64,000 nt of DNA. Source: an uncultured Bacteroidota bacterium (GTDB lineage Bacteria; Bacteroidota; Bacteroidia; UKL13-3). Below are positions 23,140 to 40,623 of the stretch, piece after piece (within the stretch, counting starts at the first letter, position 1; each line of letters opens with the position of its first letter). The notes below the pieces were generated by a model that was not told where the DNA came from, ran no database searches, and worked only from the letters and a program-made list of their open reading frames with translations. The position numbers and the translations under genes are program-made. Location: contig CAINMV010000037.1 in NCBI GenBank assembly GCA_903850915.1, positions 124,001 to 188,000 on the forward strand. The letters run 5' to 3'.

Positions 23140-24312
23140 CTAAAAAACAAGGCCAATGTTCAGACTAGAAACAATTAAACGTTCATGAAATGGATATTCT
23201 TTTTTAAAGGTGTTGCCATTAGCATGTTTTATCTTAAATGCACAAATCCAATCCAAGCGAGAATTAAATTTATTCTGATAGGAGAGTCCAAAGCTTGTAT
23301 AACTATTAATTTTATATAACGCTTCGGTTTTAGAGAATAAGCGATCGTTGGTAGTGTTTTTAACAATATAATGTGCACCCACTCTCGATAATATTTGGAC
23401 CCCGGCTAAAACCGTAAAAAACCCGTGTGATTTAATATGTGCTAGTTTATAACCAACTTCCAATGGAACAGTAACATTTTGTAAACTGTTTTTACGCTTA
23501 CTTTCGTTATTGAGGCGATACGTGGCAGTTTCCGTTTTAGAACCATTAATTGTGTTCAAATAAAATGTTTCAGGGGCAATATCAATCGCTCCAATTTTAT
23601 AGGTTGTATTTTGATAGCCAAATCCAATATTAGCACGCCAATGGTGGTTAATTGGGTAGCCTACCAAAAGCTGCAACTCAAATCCTAGGCCTGGATCTAC
23701 GTAATTATTGAAGCCTGTATTTAAAGGTTTTGATACGTTGATGCCTATTGAAATCATGTATGATAACTTTTTATGCGACCCAAAGGAAACTAAGTTTGTC
23801 GTTTTAGGAAGGGTTTCTGCACCAAGTAATGCAGCAATATAATTAACCTTTTTTGTGTTCAATGTAATTAAGTTTGCTGAATCCTTAACCTGTTCTAATG
23901 GCAGATGAACAACCGTATGGGAAACCTTCTGTATATTCTTATCATTATTTTTTAGCGAAACAGAGACCGGAGGCTGAAATTTATTTTGCTGCTGCTTGGG
24001 TGCCTCAGAATATTCCTTATTGTTTGATTCGTTAATTCGTTGTGCTGGTTGTAACGATTTTTTTTCTGATATTGGTGTATGGGTTATTTCCACAACATCT
24101 AGTTTTGCTATTGTGGATGAATTTGGATTAGTCATATGGTAAAAATATAAAACCCCTCCACTAACTAAAAGCAATATTGCAGCGGAGTACCACAATAGAT
24201 TTCGGCGCGGTGCTTTTCGTATTTCAACACGAACCACCTCCCAAACCCTTTCCGAAGGCTCCATTTTAAAGCATTTCGCTTCATTCTTTAATTGTTCTTC
24301 AAAACTTTCCAC
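23140..24312 (-). CDS. putative envelope-spanning anti-sigma/outer-membrane beta-barrel protein (pair 1)
   Basis: 390 residues without a cleavable signal peptide. Layout: short charged cytoplasmic N-part (1-38, MESFEEQLKNEAKCFK), one transmembrane helix (about 39-60, NLLWYSAAILLLVSGGVLYF), a polar Ser/Gln/Lys-rich linker (about 60-170), then a beta-rich domain that resembles porin-like outer-membrane barrels (MISIGINVSKPL, WRANIGFGYQNTTYKI) and ends in LNIGLVF. It follows an ECF sigma gene by 104 bases. The same order and layout recur at 36786-38108. A role as anti-sigma factor is inferred from position and topology; no named anti-sigma domain is recognised. Confidence 0.65.
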   Translation of the reverse strand: MESFEEQLKNEAKCFKMEPSERVWEVVRVEIRKAPRRNLLWYSAAILLLVSGGVLYFYHMTNPNSSTIAKLDVVEITHTPISEKKSLQPAQRINESNNKEYSEAPKQQQNKFQPPVSVSLKNNDKNIQKVSHTVVHLPLEQVKDSANLITLNTKKVNYIAALLGAETLPKTTNLVSFGSHKKLSYMISIGINVSKPLNTGFNNYVDPGLGFELQLLVGYPINHHWRANIGFGYQNTTYKIGAIDIAPETFYLNTINGSKTETATYRLNNESKRKNSLQNVTVPLEVGYKLAHIKSHGFFTVLAGVQILSRVGAHYIVKNTTNDRLFSKTEALYKINSYTSFGLSYQNKFNSRLDWICAFKIKHANGNTFKKEYPFHERLIVSSLNIGLVF

Positions 24313-24416
24313 AACACTAAATTTAAATACATCTAATTTTTTAAATAGATTTTAGAATAATCCTGTTTTAATTCATAAGTCTAAATTATAACCATATAAA
24401 AAACCAAACCGTTTTT

Positions 24417-24980
24417 TCAACCTAACTTCTGCGTAGGAATTAATATTTTATTTTGCTCCAAGATTCGCACCGCTAAAAGAGCTTTTGCCCTTGCATATTG
24501 AGATCGCGAAGTGCCTTCACTAATATCAAGCATTTCGGCAATTTCGCGGTGCGAGAAGCCTTCAATTGCAAACAAATTTAATACCGCCTTATAACCAACA
24601 GGCAACGTCTGTATACAATCCATTAAATCTTTACCACTGAGCCTAATACTTGCCTCTTCTGCATGTGGTGGAACTTCATAGGCCATCGAATCTAATGTTA
24701 AACTTTCTTTGATTTGTTTGTTGTGATTCATGTAATTTAAAGATGTTGTAACAGTTACCCTTTTCATCCATCCTTCGAATGATCCTTCATGACGAAATTG
24801 ATACATCGAAGTGAAAATTTTAATGAAGGCCTCTTGCAAAATGTCTTCGGCATCTTCAACATTTTTGGCGTAACGATAACAAACGCCCATCAAAGTCGAA
24901 GAATATTTATCGTACAGTCTCTTTTGTGATTTTTCATCACCTTTCAAACACTGTTCAATAAGCGTTTTGTCATTCAACAT
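24417..24980 (-). CDS. ECF-type RNA polymerase sigma factor (pair 1)
   Basis: 187 residues, two-domain ECF sigma. Region 2: LYDKYSSTLMGVCYRYAKN with DAEDILQEAFIKIF and EGWMKRVTVTTSLNYM. Region 4: LPVGYKAVLNLFAIEG, SHREIAEMLDISEGTSRSQYARAK. It should direct RNA polymerase to a small regulon. It resembles the second sigma factor at 38092-38721 in motif order. Its partner gene follows. Its promoter was not identified; the 191 bases upstream contain a 6-bp inverted repeat (ACTCTA/TAGAGT, 25011-25032) of unknown meaning. Confidence 0.92.
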   Translation of the reverse strand: MLNDKTLIEQCLKGDEKSQKRLYDKYSSTLMGVCYRYAKNVEDAEDILQEAFIKIFTSMYQFRHEGSFEGWMKRVTVTTSLNYMNHNKQIKESLTLDSMAYEVPPHAEEASIRLSGKDLMDCIQTLPVGYKAVLNLFAIEGFSHREIAEMLDISEGTSRSQYARAKALLAVRILEQNKILIPTQKLG

Positions 24981-32276: not shown

Positions 32277-35200
32277 TTATCGGATTAAGTGCACGGTACC
32301 ATCGTATTCGTACTCTTTTTTATCCATACCGGTAACCACCACTTTGTAGATGTAAACATCAATTTGAGAATCAAGCCCATTGTATTTACCATCCCATCCA
32401 TGATCTTTATAGCTTTGTGAATGATACAATTGCTCTCCCCAACGACTATAAATAAACATTTCAAAAGTTTTGATTCCTGTAGCCACCACCTTAAACTTCT
32501 CGTTCGCCAATGGCCCATCTTCATCAGGAGTGAAAGCATTTGGAATAAACACGGTTAAATCAGGTGCGATGTAGATATTGTGTTGAATCATATCCTCACA
32601 ATCACCTTTAGAGGATACTACCTTAAGAGTTACTGTTCTCCAACCCGTATCGGCATCCGGGTTATTAATTTTATACAAATATTCTGGATTTTGCAATGTT
32701 GAGGTACCAACACCATCACCGAAATCCCAATCCCATGATTTAATAGGAAGTCCACTATTATCTGTAAGGTCTTTGAACTTGTATTTAGGTAATGCTACGG
32801 TAGCCCAATCTGGTGCATTTGGATCGAAGGTAAACTCCGCTTTTGGAATTGGATAAACTTCAATCATTTGCGGACGGGTACTTGTTTCGTCGCAGCCATT
32901 TTTGCTAATAATTTTTAATAAAATTGAATAAACACCCGGAGCACTAAACGTATGCGTTGGGTTGCGGGTGGTGTCATTATTTAATGCGCCGCTAGCAGGA
33001 TCTCCAAAATCCCAGAGGTAGCTTACATTGTCGCGAACAATATTTGTATCTTGAAATGTAGTTGTGAATGGAACACAGCCAACCAATTTAGGTGAGTTAA
33101 AGCTCACAATAGGAGTTGGATAAATTGGCGCTTCTGCATAAACAGAGTCGTAGCGACAAATGCTGTTACCTGTACTAATTAAGGCAATACTCATCTTCTC
33201 TGCTGCTACCTCTGCTAGTGTTGGAATATAGGTGATGACAGAATCGTTCCATGTTGAGTTTATTAGAGTGCCACCACCTACATTCACCCATTTAAATCCG
33301 TAAGGGGCATAGGTATGGCCTTTAATCACAACACCGGAATCTTGCGTTTTCTTAGCACATAAACCACCGATTGGTTCAATACTCACATGCGGAGGCATCT
33401 CCACATAAAATTTCATTGAAGTGTCTTTTGAACATGTGGTCAATGGATCTGTATAACTATATTTTACCATATGCCATCCTGTATCTGTAACTACAGGGTC
33501 AATACTTGTGGTGAAAAACTCTGTACCATCAAGAAAATAACGACTTCCATTGCCTCCTGGATTTGGAGTAAGCACAATTGGAGGGTCTGTTTTACATACC
33601 GCATAACTAGATGCTTTTATGGTTGGCTGCGGAATTGGATGCACCGTTATCTGCAAGGAATCCATGTCGCTGCAACCAATACGAGTAACTTTGTAATATA
33701 GTGTGTATGTTTTACTAGTTCCAGAAATGTTCACATTCGGATTAAAGTTAGAGCTATCCGGCAATACTCCAGTTCCCCACCATTTACCATCATAGGGAGT
33801 GCTATGAAGATTATTTGTTAATTGTAAAGGCCCACTGCCTACGCAAATAGCGGTGTCAACTCCTGCATCAACAACTGGAATTGGTGTTACCGTAAAGTCA
33901 ACAGTATCACTATTAGAACATGCAGGTGATATTAGATCTTTGTACCAATAAATAAGCTGATACGTTTCACCTAAATGATTAACACCATCGCCTGCTTTAA
34001 CTGGATCAAAGCAATAGCTGAATTTTCCGCCTCCAATAGGTGTACTATCTAATGGATAGGTAATTGCTTTGCTAGCATCTAATACATACCATTTCCCACC
34101 ATAGGGGAGTCCCATTGTATCAAGACTAAAACAAGTGTTGTAATTTGAGCAGAATGTTTTATCGGAGCCCGCCAATACTACCGGAGGAGGCACCACTTGA
34201 ACAGTTACAGAGTCTTTTACTTTACAACCGCTAGGTGCGGTTGCCTCCATAATCACATAATAGATACCACCTGATGGTGGGCTTTGAACTGGATCAAAAT
34301 AGAATACTCCTGTTGTTGGATCCATTGATACAGCAAGCGGTTGAGAGTTACTGTACCAATTTACGTATGTAGGTGGCACATTCGCTCCATTAACCTTTAG
34401 CGTTCCTGTAAGGAAGATAAATCCACCATTAATACAGCGTTTTGGAAATACTGGGAAGGTAATCGTAGGCAGTGTATTTACATTCACAACAACAGTATCG
34501 TAGCCATAGCATGTTTTACCTTTTATAGTTTGAGTACCTTTAATATAGTAGGTAGTTGAAACCAATGGATTCACAGAGATACTTGTTCCAGTAGCTGTTA
34601 CCGAGTTTTTATTGTTTGTCCATTCATAGGTGTCGGCACCTGTGGCTGTTAATGAAGTAGTATCGCCGTAACAAATAATCACATCAGCCAATGGACCAAC
34701 AATTACCTTAGGATTTACAAAAAGATTAAACGTGTCGAAGGCCTCGCAGCCGAAGGAGTCAATAACTTGAACAGTATATTGAGCGCTATCACTAATTGTA
34801 ATTGTTTGAGAGGTCGATAAACTTGCACCATCTTTCTGCCAAACATATAGTTGTCCTGGATTGCCGGCATCAAGCAAAAATGACTCTCCAAAGCACAAGC
34901 GCTCATCAGGGGGAAGAGCCACGACTGGCAATGGTTTTACCTCGATATATACCGAATCCGACGCGATGCAAAGATCTTTATCCAACACACTTACACGATA
35001 GTAACCAGAAACCGTAGGTGTGATCGTAACATCAGCAAAAGTATCATTAACTCCAGTACTCCACTTGTAACTGATAGGTAGTACACCATGACGAACATCG
35101 CAAGTTAACTTGATATTCTTTCCAATACATACATGTGAATCAGGCATACAAACCACGCTTATTGGGGTATCAACCTGAATGGTATCAAAATAGGTATTTG

Positions 35201-36659
35201 TGCAACCATTAAAAAACATCGTATTTTTTACTAAATACTTTCCACCTTGCGAAAATTGGTATTGGCACGTGGCTGTTGAAGCCCAAACCGTAACAGGAGA
35301 ACCCGTTCCCACTGCTTTTGGAACATACCACTTGTAAGAAGCACCATTAAAATAGGTACTCGTTGGCGTTGCGGCAAACTCCCAAAGTCCGCATCCTTTT
35401 TTAGTAAATGTTCGATTGTTTTTGGGTGTTGGTTTTACAACGATAGAATATGAACGCGTCATAGTTCCATTTAATGGACAATGGTCGTCGTAAGCCGTAG
35501 CTGTAAAATAATACGGCAAGGTACTTGCGTCATCATCGCCTGGTGTCCAGCACATCGTCCCGGAGGCATGTTTTACCGCACCATTATTATCCGACCAAAC
35601 GCCATTTGTGATTCCTTTATTCCAATTTATTCGCGTTGTATCTGATAAATCTTGATCATTGGTATTAATCGTTATACATATCTGCTGCCCCGCACACGCC
35701 TCATAGGAATATGGTCCCGACAAACTTGGTAACTTATTATTACAGTTTTGAATAATTACAAACTGCATATCCCGGGCTGTTTTTCCTATAACTTTATAAA
35801 CGCCGTTCGCATCTTTACGCCATTCTGTAACCATAATTTTCAATACGGTGATTTGCACTTGCATTGGACGGAAACACATATCACCAGTACGAGGATCAAG
35901 ATTAAATCCTGTTGGAGGATTGGCATTCGGGTTCGGGTTGTTTCCACCTAAACAAGTAAGTGGGTAAGTATAACTCCAAGGAGAAGAATAGCTTCCTCCC
36001 AATGGTGGAGCCATAGCGTATGAAAGTGAGTCGCCATCAGCATCAACAACACCGTGGTTAAAACAAACATCTTGACCAGCGCATTTGATTGCAACAGGTA
36101 CGTTTTTAAATTCTGGACCATTATCACAAGGCTGTACGCAACGATTCAACCAAGATTCTGAATAAAAGTCAGCATCGGCATAACCTGTAGTAATATTACT
36201 ATTACGGCAACACAACTGCCAACGCATTTTATACCAACAACAATTGGCATAATTGCCGCCGAAATAAACCTTCCATACGGCAGTATGTCTCTCCACCCCA
36301 ACTGGAATTTGAGCAGTTGATGTACCGCTACCTCCTGAAATAGGACACGGTTTCTGACCTGACGAACACACTGGCGTGATATCTTCCACCGTATAGGACT
36401 TCATGGTTCCCTTACTTACAGTGTAGGAGTTAGCGCAAGAGTCACTAGTGATAGCCATTGATGCTAAGTCGCCCGAACTCATTGACGAGGCGCCATCAGT
36501 ACAACGACGATAAACCACCAAGGTGATTTGAAAGGTATCGTTACCAAGGCACTTCCAAACAATATCCATACCCATTACGTGGGTGGCGTTAGCCTGCTTG
36601 GTACCCAATCCTAGGGCAAAAAGAGTGGTTAATAAAACAATGCGTAAAAACTTATTCAT
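32277..36659 (-). CDS. giant PKD/Ig-like surface protein with T9SS type B C-terminal domain, paralog B
   Basis: 1460 residues. Signal peptide about 1-25 ending near QANA. The same Cys-rich N-module as paralog A (THVMGMDIVWKCLGNDTF, NCCWYKMRWQLCCR, CDNGPEFKNVP, then FNHGVVDADGDSLSY), a long Ig/PKD-like array, two canonical PKD domains (YLWDFGDPASG and WDWDFGDG, about 1215-1370), and a type B tail VFIPNAFTPDEDGP to YDGTVHLIR. The pair clearly arose by tandem duplication, with clear protein-level divergence since. Expected on the cell surface, perhaps in adhesion or motility; no enzyme domain is seen. It follows the sigma/barrel pair by 126 bases. Confidence 0.92.
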   Translation of the reverse strand: MNKFLRIVLLTTLFALGLGTKQANATHVMGMDIVWKCLGNDTFQITLVVYRRCTDGASSMSSGDLASMAITSDSCANSYTVSKGTMKSYTVEDITPVCSSGQKPCPISGGSGTSTAQIPVGVERHTAVWKVYFGGNYANCCWYKMRWQLCCRNSNITTGYADADFYSESWLNRCVQPCDNGPEFKNVPVAIKCAGQDVCFNHGVVDADGDSLSYAMAPPLGGSYSSPWSYTYPLTCLGGNNPNPNANPPTGFNLDPRTGDMCFRPMQVQITVLKIMVTEWRKDANGVYKVIGKTARDMQFVIIQNCNNKLPSLSGPYSYEACAGQQICITINTNDQDLSDTTRINWNKGITNGVWSDNNGAVKHASGTMCWTPGDDDASTLPYYFTATAYDDHCPLNGTMTRSYSIVVKPTPKNNRTFTKKGCGLWEFAATPTSTYFNGASYKWYVPKAVGTGSPVTVWASTATCQYQFSQGGKYLVKNTMFFNGCTNTYFDTIQVDTPISVVCMPDSHVCIGKNIKLTCDVRHGVLPISYKWSTGVNDTFADVTITPTVSGYYRVSVLDKDLCIASDSVYIEVKPLPVVALPPDERLCFGESFLLDAGNPGQLYVWQKDGASLSTSQTITISDSAQYTVQVIDSFGCEAFDTFNLFVNPKVIVGPLADVIICYGDTTSLTATGADTYEWTNNKNSVTATGTSISVNPLVSTTYYIKGTQTIKGKTCYGYDTVVVNVNTLPTITFPVFPKRCINGGFIFLTGTLKVNGANVPPTYVNWYSNSQPLAVSMDPTTGVFYFDPVQSPPSGGIYYVIMEATAPSGCKVKDSVTVQVVPPPVVLAGSDKTFCSNYNTCFSLDTMGLPYGGKWYVLDASKAITYPLDSTPIGGGKFSYCFDPVKAGDGVNHLGETYQLIYWYKDLISPACSNSDTVDFTVTPIPVVDAGVDTAICVGSGPLQLTNNLHSTPYDGKWWGTGVLPDSSNFNPNVNISGTSKTYTLYYKVTRIGCSDMDSLQITVHPIPQPTIKASSYAVCKTDPPIVLTPNPGGNGSRYFLDGTEFFTTSIDPVVTDTGWHMVKYSYTDPLTTCSKDTSMKFYVEMPPHVSIEPIGGLCAKKTQDSGVVIKGHTYAPYGFKWVNVGGGTLINSTWNDSVITYIPTLAEVAAEKMSIALISTGNSICRYDSVYAEAPIYPTPIVSFNSPKLVGCVPFTTTFQDTNIVRDNVSYLWDFGDPASGALNNDTTRNPTHTFSAPGVYSILLKIISKNGCDETSTRPQMIEVYPIPKAEFTFDPNAPDWATVALPKYKFKDLTDNSGLPIKSWDWDFGDGVGTSTLQNPEYLYKINNPDADTGWRTVTLKVVSSKGDCEDMIQHNIYIAPDLTVFIPNAFTPDEDGPLANEKFKVVATGIKTFEMFIYSRWGEQLYHSQSYKDHGWDGKYNGLDSQIDVYIYKVVVTGMDKKEYEYDGTVHLIR

Positions 36660-36785: not shown

Positions 36786-38108
36786 TTAGAATATTTTTCT
36801 TCCTACCGATACATTTATTCCTCCCGAAAAAGGTGCGATGTTTTCGTAGTTGTTTTTTGAAATATTGTTAATATACTTGTTATAGGAGAGGTCGACACCG
36901 ATTCCGTAAAGCGGAGAAAGTGCGAAGTTAACACCCAAACCGAAGCATAATTCTCGGGCTGTGTTAACAAAATCTGTTTTTGAAATTGCTTTTTGTTCCA
37001 TTGTCAGAGAATTTAAGCCCACCCCATCTGCACTTAAAAGAATGTTTTGGGAGCCACCGAGATAAAGATGGAACAAGGAATTCGTGTTAAACAACAAGTT
37101 GTAATTGAGGCCAACTGGAATTCTTAATACAGAAAAGTTGGTTTTACTATTTAAAACAACTTGCAATGGAATTGGTAAGATTTCATAACCTATTATTCTA
37201 CCATTGTTATCCGTGATTGCCTTATCGCTTACCTCAAAATCGAAGTTCGATTGAAACCCTAACTTACTATATGAAATGCCACTTTGAATGCTAAAATTAG
37301 GGAGAAATCTATATTCAAGAGCCAACGTAGCACCATGAGTTACCCTTGCCTGTTCTGAATTTTGGCGAACATAATCATATTGTTTATTTACGAATGGCGC
37401 ACCACCCTTATTCAATGCAAAACTGCGATAACTCCCCACTAATGAAATGGTAGCACTTACAAATAACTTCCCTTTATGAAAATCGCCACGACCCTTAGGC
37501 TTAGCATGCACCGTGCTTTTGCTAGTTTTATTTGGACTACGCTTTTGAGTGGTTGCTGCGGATTGATCTTGCAATCCGGGTGCAATTGCTTTTAACTCCT
37601 CAGATTTAGCGTTTATATCTTCAACAACAGAGAGAGCTTTATTTTCAAAAGCTCCTTCTGATGTTGCGATTTTAACTGAATTACCAATCGAATTATTGGC
37701 TATCGGTTCATAAGTAGTCAGGGTTACATGCGATTGTTTTGTTTCAGCAACCGTGAGTTTTGGAGTGATTTGGGTTGATTTTACTGATGCTGTAATTGAT
37801 GCTGGTGCAATTAGCGCTGTTTCATTCTCTACCTCCGATTTTACTGTTTCGGTAGTCGAAACTTGGTGTGTTGAAATTACCTTTGGCTCGATAACGTTAC
37901 CATCTGCCAATTTTAGGCTAGGGTTGCTTTTCGTTACCAACATCGATGTAATAGCTCCACCTATTACTAGCAATGAAAACACCCAAACAGCAAGTATGCG
38001 ACCTGATTTTTTAGCAGGTAATGAAGCACTTAATGCATCCCAACCCGTAGGTATGTCAGGTACGACATTCTCCAATTTGTGTTTTAAAAAATCATCTAAC
38101 TTGTTCAT
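36786..38108 (-). CDS. putative envelope-spanning anti-sigma/outer-membrane beta-barrel protein (pair 2)
   Basis: 440 residues, no cleavable signal peptide. Charged N-part MNKLDDFLKHKLENVVPD (1-35), one transmembrane helix (about 37-58, ILAVWVFSLLVIGGAITSML), a long Thr/Ser/Lys-rich, probably disordered linker (about 60-215), then a beta-rich domain (ALEYRFLPNFSIQSGISYSKL, IPVGLNYNLLFNTNSLFHLYLGG, GLGVNFALSPLYGIGVDLSY) ending INVSVGRKIF. Its ATG lies inside the sigma gene, overlapping by 17 bases, so translation is coupled. The arrangement mirrors 23140-24312. Anti-sigma activity is inferred from coupling and topology only. Confidence 0.68.
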   Translation of the reverse strand: MNKLDDFLKHKLENVVPDIPTGWDALSASLPAKKSGRILAVWVFSLLVIGGAITSMLVTKSNPSLKLADGNVIEPKVISTHQVSTTETVKSEVENETALIAPASITASVKSTQITPKLTVAETKQSHVTLTTYEPIANNSIGNSVKIATSEGAFENKALSVVEDINAKSEELKAIAPGLQDQSAATTQKRSPNKTSKSTVHAKPKGRGDFHKGKLFVSATISLVGSYRSFALNKGGAPFVNKQYDYVRQNSEQARVTHGATLALEYRFLPNFSIQSGISYSKLGFQSNFDFEVSDKAITDNNGRIIGYEILPIPLQVVLNSKTNFSVLRIPVGLNYNLLFNTNSLFHLYLGGSQNILLSADGVGLNSLTMEQKAISKTDFVNTARELCFGLGVNFALSPLYGIGVDLSYNKYINNISKNNYENIAPFSGGINVSVGRKIF

Positions 38109-38721
38109 ATTGTACTGTTGTAATATTTACTTTAGAAATGTTATTTCTTTTCACTTCACTTTTTTTTTGATAGTCGTTACGAATAAGCTGAATAAGCTTC
38201 ACACGGGCTCTGCTCAATTGTGATTTTGAAGTGCCTTCGCTCATTCCTGTAAAGGCTGCAATCTCTGCATGTGTCATCCCATCGATGGCATACATGTTAA
38301 GAATGAGACGATACTTTAATGGCAATTCACCCATAAAAACCAATACCTCCTCAGAAGTGATCGTTTTCATCCAATAATCCTGCTCTTCTTGATCAATATC
38401 ATCAACATCTGTTACTCCATAAGACTCGTCTACAAACACATTGTTAGAAAGACGACTTTTCTTACGGATTTGGTTGATGGTATTGTTTCGAATAACCGTT
38501 GCAATCCAAGCTTCGAGAGGGGTGCCAGACTTAAACTTCCCAAATTCAGTAAAAACTTTCAAAAAACCATCGTGCGCGAAATCGGCTGCTTCTTCTTTGT
38601 TCTCGGCATAGCGTAAACAAATTCCAAACACTTTTCTCCGATACAACTCGTAAACCTCCTGCATAATGCTTCGGTCTCCTTTTTGTATTCCTTGAATATG
38701 TTCAGCCTCCGATTTTAGCAC
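38092..38721 (-). CDS. ECF-type RNA polymerase sigma factor (pair 2)
   Basis: 209 residues from a GTG start; the next Met (about residue 20) would cut region 2, so GTG is preferred. Region 2: VYELYRRKVFGICLRYAEN, EEAADFAHDGFLKVF, EAWIATVIRNNTINQIR. Region 4: LPLKYRLILNMYAIDGM, HAEIAAFTGMSEGTSKSQLSRAR. A basic tail of about 25 residues (DYQKKSEVKRNN and on) follows. The gene sits between a PKD surface protein and its membrane/barrel partner, on the same strand as two further giant surface proteins. Those are candidate regulon members. Confidence 0.92.
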   Translation of the reverse strand: MLKSEAEHIQGIQKGDRSIMQEVYELYRRKVFGICLRYAENKEEAADFAHDGFLKVFTEFGKFKSGTPLEAWIATVIRNNTINQIRKKSRLSNNVFVDESYGVTDVDDIDQEEQDYWMKTITSEEVLVFMGELPLKYRLILNMYAIDGMTHAEIAAFTGMSEGTSKSQLSRARVKLIQLIRNDYQKKSEVKRNNISKVNITTVQYEQVR

Positions 38722-38796
38722 GTTCGTAAGTGTAGTTATATATTACAATACAATAAAATTAAAAATGGTTGCAAAAAAACAATTGATTCTCTTGTT

Positions 38797-40623
38797 TTAG
38801 CGAAGTAGTGTTACTATACCCTTGAAAACCAAGCGTTTACCTGTTGGATCCTTAAATCGGATGAGGTACACGTAATTCCCAGTTCCACAAATGGATCCAT
38901 CGCTAGAGCGACCGTTCCAGGCTATCGTCTCTTTTGTTGAGGTAAAAACAAGTTCGCCCCATCGATCGAAAATAGTCATTTGAAATTGTGTAGTGCCTGC
39001 TGGTCCAAAAGCTTTAAATACCTCATTTTCGTATGGCCCGCCTTCGTTGGGCGAAAAGGCAGAAGGTACAAAGTACTTATAAAGATTATCTACCCTAATT
39101 ATCATTGAAACGGTGTCTTCACAACCCAATTTGTTCTTGGCGGTGAGTATCACCTGAAACCAGCCGGTATCAGTATAGGTATGCGTTGGTGAAATATCTG
39201 TAGATGTATTTTGATCCCCAAAATCCCAAATATACGTCATTGAGTTCGTGCTTTTGTTAGAGAATGTGAAATTCGCTTTTGTGATTTCAGCCTTGAGTTT
39301 ATCGGGTGTGAAACTAGCAATTGGATCGCTTAAAACATAGAGATAATTGGTAATTTGCGTGTCGCAAGGCCCGTCGATGACATAAAGTTTTACTAGTTTT
39401 ACACCTGACGAATCGTAGCTATGCACTGCATTCGCCCCAATTGCGGTGTCACCATCACCAAAATCCCAATGGTAATAGGTGAAATTTTGATTGTATGCGC
39501 TAAAAGTATAGTAGTCACCGATACATAAAGAATCTACCTTAAAATTTGTTACAGGCTTGGCTTGAATTATCACCTTTACCGAATCGATAGCAGTACAACT
39601 ATTATTGTTGGTGGTTAAATAGTAGGTAGTTGTAACCGATGGTGATGCAATGGTAGTGTAACCGGTGGTAGTGCTTAGCCCTGTTGCTGGCGACCAAACC
39701 GCAGTACCTAGCCCTGTTCCAGAAAGAGTAACACCCGAACGTATGCAGATAGTAGTATCTTTATTAAAAATATCGGCATACGATTGCTTGTAAATTTTGA
39801 CCAGCTTAACTGATGAATCTTTCTTTGTTTCCAGTGAATCGAAAACCACGAGGCTGACATAAAACGAGCCGGTATCTGAAAAAGTATGAGAAACCGAAGA
39901 GGTATCCGCTTTAGTAAGAATATTACTACCTCCAGAAGCTGGATCACCAAAATACCAGATATAGTGGTGAGAGACCAACGACATATTCTTGAAGTTTGCC
40001 GTTAAAACACCACACAGAGGCGCCACAAATGTAAATTGAGAGGTAAGTGGAGTGCAGTTAACAAAATTAACCGTAATTGATTTCGTACTTATACAACCCG
40101 TGGTGGTATCCGTTACAGTTACTGTATATGTTTGGGTGTGTGTAAACCTATATTCCACACTATTTCCTGTTGCATTAGTGCTTTGTGGGGTAGGATTCCA
40201 AGTGTATTTAAATGCAGGATCAAGCGTGGCATTAATAAAGTTGTTTTCACTATCACCTTGACAATATGTTTTAAAAGAAGATGGAATTATAAGGACATTG
40301 GGTGCCTGAACTACTAAAATTTGATGCGTAACACTGTCTACAGGCTTGTTACTTAAATCTAGAATATATAACTTAACATTGTAGGTACCATAAGCTGAAA
40401 AAGTATGCGATTGCGTAATCTTGGTTAAGTTAAAGGCAAAGTTACTTGCGCCAGATGTAGGATCATCGAAGCTCCAAAAATAGGCGATATTAAGCCCAGT
40501 AGATGTATTAGTAAATCCTGTGGTTAAAGTGCCACAAACTGGAGAAGTATATGTATAGCTAACCGCAGAATATGTTTTATTCAGCAGCAAAAATAAAAAC
40601 AAAAAGGTGATTACTTTCCTCAT
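38797..40623 (-). CDS. PKD-repeat surface protein with T9SS type B C-terminal domain
   Basis: 608 residues. Signal peptide about 1-19 (MRKVITFLFLFLLLNKTYS). Four PKD-type domains are seen: YFWSFDDPTSG (about 50), YIWYFGDPASGG (about 220), YHWDFGDGDTA (about 385) and YIWDFGDQNTS (about 465). Between the first two pairs are Ig-like segments with VTVTDTTTGC and TTYYLTTNNNSC. The tail YFVPSAFSPNEGGP to KGIVTLLR is the T9SS type B sorting domain. It lacks the Cys-rich N-module of the two giant paralogs. It is the first gene of the five-gene surface locus and has a recognisable housekeeping-type -7 box. Function probably adhesive; not proven. Confidence 0.9.
   Translation of the reverse strand: MRKVITFLFLFLLLNKTYSAVSYTYTSPVCGTLTTGFTNTSTGLNIAYFWSFDDPTSGASNFAFNLTKITQSHTFSAYGTYNVKLYILDLSNKPVDSVTHQILVVQAPNVLIIPSSFKTYCQGDSENNFINATLDPAFKYTWNPTPQSTNATGNSVEYRFTHTQTYTVTVTDTTTGCISTKSITVNFVNCTPLTSQFTFVAPLCGVLTANFKNMSLVSHHYIWYFGDPASGGSNILTKADTSSVSHTFSDTGSFYVSLVVFDSLETKKDSSVKLVKIYKQSYADIFNKDTTICIRSGVTLSGTGLGTAVWSPATGLSTTTGYTTIASPSVTTTYYLTTNNNSCTAIDSVKVIIQAKPVTNFKVDSLCIGDYYTFSAYNQNFTYYHWDFGDGDTAIGANAVHSYDSSGVKLVKLYVIDGPCDTQITNYLYVLSDPIASFTPDKLKAEITKANFTFSNKSTNSMTYIWDFGDQNTSTDISPTHTYTDTGWFQVILTAKNKLGCEDTVSMIIRVDNLYKYFVPSAFSPNEGGPYENEVFKAFGPAGTTQFQMTIFDRWGELVFTSTKETIAWNGRSSDGSICGTGNYVYLIRFKDPTGKRLVFKGIVTLLR

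Follow-up and report, generated by a model that had tools for sequence, protein, structure and literature searches.

We propose that two overlapping genes in a 64,000-nucleotide stretch of DNA from an uncultured Bacteroidota bacterium (the window) encode a Dma/Das-type system, in which an ECF sigma factor is governed by a candidate anti-sigma polypeptide that reaches from the cytoplasm to the outer membrane; to this reading, taken whole with the mechanism set out below, we assign a probability of about 0.85. The partner of the sigma factor begins with a head of cytoplasmic type, continues with an inner-membrane helix and runs through a disordered tether into a predicted outer-membrane barrel, as a sequence-only reading had proposed, and its gene begins within the sigma gene on the same minus strand, with the 17-base overlap exactly where that reading had placed it (Table 1). 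The pair, its overlap and its architecture are common to four genomes of the genus, which is more than chance would give. On either side of the pair stands a gene for a T9SS type B protein, a placement kept in the genus: the 608-residue protein scores 48.5 bits with the Pfam family CHU_C and 37.6 bits with TIGR04131, and the 1460-residue protein 41.1 and 35.7 bits, respectively. We treat these flanking genes as context, their membership in the sigma/partner system being only conjectural. A single-protein search with the partner returned relatives in only two Bacteroidetes MAGs, both among the genus genomes already found.

Table 1. Features of the sigma/partner locus in the window, and loci elsewhere that carry the promoter-like element
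Feature	Position	Strand	Basis or remark
ECF sigma factor (Das-type), 209 aa, GTG start	38092..38721	-	Pfam matches, clade
Dma-type dual-membrane anti-sigma candidate, 440 aa	36786..38108, incl. stop codon	-	
Overlap of sigma gene and partner gene, 17 bases	38092..38108	-	Kept in three other genus genomes
Cytoplasmic head, residues 1-36, putative sigma-binding part	38001..38108	-	
Transmembrane helix, residues 37-58	37935..38000	-	Hydropathy and model
Disordered tether, residues 59-209	37482..37934	-	pLDDT, composition, low identity
Outer-membrane barrel (predicted), 8 strands, residues 210-440, Phe as last residue	36789..37481	-	
Promoter-like element GCAACC-N13-TTGTAY, 5' of sigma gene	38748..38772	-	Conserved
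Upstream flanking gene, 608 aa, PKD repeats and T9SS type B sorting domain	38797..40623	-	
Downstream flanking gene, 1460 aa, T9SS type B sorting domain	32277..36659	-	
Element/PorP/SprF-gldJ loci	L180 (G000:C31:20500-25500), L183-L185, L187, L188		

The sigma factor matches Pfam Sigma70_r2 (52.7 bits) and r4_2 (55.6 bits) and the NCBIfam sigma70-ECF model, all above cut-off. A search for NigD, whose gene is associated with Dma1, provided two genomes in which a sigma gene and a Dma-like gene stand divergent from a NigD gene; these Dma1-like comparison loci were thus identified by gene context (the NigD neighbour) and not by name. A tree of 91 sigmas joins the window sigma and the two sigmas beside the NigD-linked Dma-like genes in one clade (100/100 support), separate from FecI-like and other ECFs of its own and related genomes. 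Most members of the clade were gathered by similarity to the window sigma, the independent points being the NigD-linked pair and L132. The coupling of sigma and partner recurs in different genera and families.

The partner contains one hydrophobic segment (residues 38–56, mean hydropathy 2.2) and no second one, and in an AlphaFold2 model built with 27 sequences the transmembrane (TM) helix spans residues 35–60, a small correction to the single helix first placed at about 37–58. Residues 60–173 have pLDDT values below 50, and residues 59–209 contain 1.3% aromatics and are 14–22% identical within the genus, bearing out the polar linker of about 150 residues that had been read as unfolded. Residues 210–440 form an eight-stranded barrel in the model (pLDDT 92–98), the family PF13568 (OMP_b-brl_2) matches the C terminus with 30.3 bits (cut-off 27), and Foldseek, run against the PDB, retrieves OmpA, NspA, Ail and OmpX at probability 1.0. 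When PDB sequences were searched with the profile of the partner, nothing relevant was returned. The beta-rich C terminus ending in Phe is thus of the outer-membrane type, as first supposed, and a soluble periplasmic C-terminal domain, the alternative named at that stage, is rejected on the modelled barrel and the Foldseek matches. Within the genus the head (50–58%) and the barrel (52–56%) are far better conserved than the tether, the pattern to be expected where an unfolded spacer connects two folded ends. With an even number of strands, the barrel would begin and end on one side of the membrane, which fits a tether in the periplasm, and some 150 residues, fully extended, would reach about 50 nm, exceeding the width of the periplasm; we infer that the protein is inserted in both membranes.

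The head (residues 1–36) is modelled with helices at residues 4–13 and 23–29. The sequence-only reading had recognised no anti-sigma domain by eye, which holds in so far as Pfam matched no named anti-sigma domain in the head, but the head does carry a recurrent two-helix motif, which partners of related sigmas share regardless of what their C terminus is. A head profile built without the proteins of the NigD-linked Dma-like loci scores these excluded Dma-like heads higher than 900 shuffled sequences and some 390 other ORFs. In one relative the sigma stop codon is in frame with the partner, and the two were modelled by reading through as one chain (mean pLDDT 86; head helices 83–94), a direct fusion that may itself bias the arrangement of the sigma domains and the order of the head. 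The sigma domains in this fused model are most like those in several anti-sigma complexes (RpoE-NepR, SigW-RsiW and CnrH-CnrY, rmsd 6–8 Å), match AlgU-MucA and SigE-RseA more poorly (14–19 Å), and are unlike RNA polymerase-bound ECF sigmas (22–27 Å). From this model and the shared head profile, the head may bind the sigma factor. Two established anti-sigma types were considered for the partner and rejected: a FecR-type protein, there being no FecR domain among its Pfam matches and T9SS type B genes rather than a TonB-dependent partner as its neighbours, and a zinc anti-sigma (ZAS) protein, residues 1–36 being without Cys and so without a Cys/His zinc motif. The head motif also occurs in tandem before the TM helix in some related partners, apparently in four copies in L047 (contig C24 of the same genome), L050 and L029, and in two or more copies in L107, L026/L056, L069 and L076.

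The Dma design was reportedly first described in gut Bacteroides, by Pardue et al. in PNAS in 2024 (doi 10.1073/pnas.2321910121). The family includes Dma1/Das1 and Dma2/Das2 of Bacteroides thetaiotaomicron, where deletion of dma1 increases vesicle production through relief of das1 repression and the hypervesiculation upon dma2 deletion depends on das2 (J Bacteriol 2026, PMC13088901). The window partner shows the family's structural traits (a single TM helix after a short N-terminal head, a long intrinsically disordered tether and a C-terminal beta-barrel), and it adjoins an ECF sigma that falls in the 100/100 clade with those of the NigD-linked loci and may belong to ECF21, the sigma group beside which Dma proteins are encoded. 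The earlier claim that the arrangement stands apart from known systems is therefore superseded: the order of head, TM helix, tether and barrel is the published Dma architecture (PMC13088901), and what the window pair adds is a Dma member outside gut Bacteroides, in an uncultured Bacteroidota genus and between T9SS type B genes. No NigD gene was found in the genome of the window pair, so that the vesicle output known from Bacteroides need not apply. Dma3 of B. thetaiotaomicron (PMC13088901) has the same kind of chassis, but there the sigma factor is fused to the anti-sigma, whereas the window holds two overlapping genes. As in FecI/FecR/FecA, an ECF sigma would be governed from the outer membrane; in contrast to that system, in which a separate TonB-dependent receptor touches the periplasmic FecR domain, the barrel is here part of the same polypeptide. 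With RseA/MucA-type proteins the partner shares a single pass through the membrane and a (putative) cytoplasmic sigma-binding part, but their periplasmic domain is cut by a protease cascade, whereas the partner continues into a barrel.

Eighty sigma-partner pairs of the same sigma clade were surveyed, from the family and the phylum. By length, 43 of the 80 partners are barrel-like, while a local profile places a T9SS type B sorting domain at the end of 26; three probably have a type A end, six are short and two are cut. Several type B partners also exceed the NCBIfam cut-off of 35 bits (L010, 44.3; L037, 45.6; L041, 59.1; L049, from the genome of the window pair, 39.7; and L125, 38.5), L104, L023, L118 and L121 fall just under it, and L132 is an additional type B case from another family. 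For type A, L122 scores 36.3 bits against a cut-off of 23 and L110 lies below. The barrel-type tether has a median length of 146 residues (the change-point lengths of the six outliers L016, L119, L103, L058, L008 and L124 being unreliable), and in 19 of the 26 type B partners the domain begins 125–149 residues past the TM helix (the starts called for L010 and L034 being wrong). The spacers of L023, L024, L037 and L118 are disordered by composition; four of the 26 are longer (253–287 residues), with PKD-like sequence in those inspected. A third class of partner, of 240–310 residues, occurs in other families (L069, L070, L075-L077 and L079), and in these neither a C terminus of barrel length nor a T9SS domain was recognised. 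Type B domains owe their retention on the cell surface to PorP-like outer-membrane barrels (PMC9143113), and both designs may thus tether the sigma factor to a barrel, in cis or in trans. PorA-PorXY-SigP of Porphyromonas gingivalis (PMC7712824) likewise combines ECF control of T9SS genes with a T9SS-CTD protein as regulator, but the CTD protein is separate there and acts via a two-component system, whereas in the sister systems the CTD lies within the candidate anti-sigma. Our literature search, of incomplete coverage, found no description of T9SS-CTD anti-sigma factors.

Across four species, strong conservation marks the region 5' of the sigma gene. It contains the element TGCAACC-N(13)-TTGTAY, suggesting that the sigma factor may regulate its own gene. 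This element has no other match with fewer than three mismatches in the window, no such site lies 5' of either T9SS type B flanking gene, and a scan for consensus promoters and terminators gave no excess over shuffles. GCAACC stands 5' of 53 of the 80 clade sigmas (3.2 expected). A search of five genus genomes with GCAACC-N-TTT-N9-TTGTAY, allowing at most one mismatch, gave 27 sites against two for the reversed pattern, these genomes being related and the counts therefore not independent; with the same relatedness, 15 of the 27 lie 20–110 bases before an ORF, compared with 3.5% of random positions. Behind the sites are the sigma gene itself and genes for a DUF7948 protein that ends in a type B T9SS domain, a protein related to the 1460-residue flanking protein, an FG-GAP protein and a T9SS type A protein, together with a PorP/SprF-gldJ operon that the element precedes in four of the five genomes, including G022. 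The window pair was not found in G022 (a genome 89% complete), and the porP site may consequently belong to sister ECFs. For F. psychrophilum, a link of an ECF/anti-sigma pair to T9SS promoters has been put forward (PMC9723704). The occurrence of the element at the sigma gene, T9SS cargo and PorP/SprF-gldJ, together with the T9SS-ended partners, suggests one lever with interchangeable outer-membrane anchors. We hold this broader reading tentatively, at slightly less than even odds: a single ECF sigma clade would use a common lever of head, TM helix and tether, anchored either by a barrel in cis (Dma) or by a T9SS type B or A domain that docks PorP/SprF- or PorV-type barrels in trans, and its anti-sigmas would report outer-membrane or T9SS surface delivery or state, and would drive T9SS surface genes in this genus.

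In the mechanism that we propose for the window pair, the cytoplasmic head of the partner would keep the ECF sigma inactive at the inner membrane, with the C-terminal barrel in the outer membrane and the disordered tether crossing the periplasm. The trigger would arise at the outer membrane, where the barrel might be inserted, displaced, pulled or damaged, and would travel along the same polypeptide, by tension or cleavage, to free the sigma factor. The sigma factor would then use the GCAACC-N13-TTGTAY promoter to transcribe its own operon, and would probably also transcribe some envelope or T9SS surface genes.

Alternatively, the partner might be full length at first and normally be cleaved past the TM helix, leaving the barrel as a free outer-membrane protein and the head and helix as a conventional membrane anti-sigma that is destroyed by a protease cascade, like RseA. 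Proteolysis controls most studied membrane anti-sigma factors and our sequence work is compatible with a cleavage, but we regard this course as unlikely: the tether stays long in diverged relatives (the median given above), head and barrel remain one ORF across genera, and a released barrel would leave little reason for the fusion and the tether length to persist. It is similarly improbable, in our view, that the barrel stays in the periplasm as an unassembled client, the protein sensing the state of BAM and releasing the sigma factor upon assembly failure; the T9SS sorting domains of related partners could be accommodated, the common factor then being the status of an outer-membrane export client, but the sequence of the barrel is well preserved and its fold is predicted confidently, although our observations are directly compatible with this course as with stable insertion. 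We give very little credence to a partner with no part in regulation: an ordinary outer-membrane protein, transcribed together with the sigma gene, whose N-terminal helix is a mere signal anchor. PF13568 proteins are indeed common outer-membrane proteins and the head matches no named anti-sigma domain; however, ahead of the TM helix stands a conserved head of 36 residues, shared with the partners of related sigmas irrespective of how these end, and the pairing itself persists across genera and families.

Under the Dma/Das-type reading, the tether length that is kept while the outer module swaps between barrel and T9SS domain suggests that what counts may be a physical connection to the outer membrane. 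The Dma literature that we found names no signal sensed by these proteins, and interchangeable anchors, if real, would give a direct handle on what they sense. The window also holds a second Dma-type pair (23140–24980, minus strand), comprising an ECF sigma (24417–24980) and a 390-residue partner (23140–24312) with a TM helix at residues 39–57 and a PF13568 match of 31.9 bits (cut-off 27).
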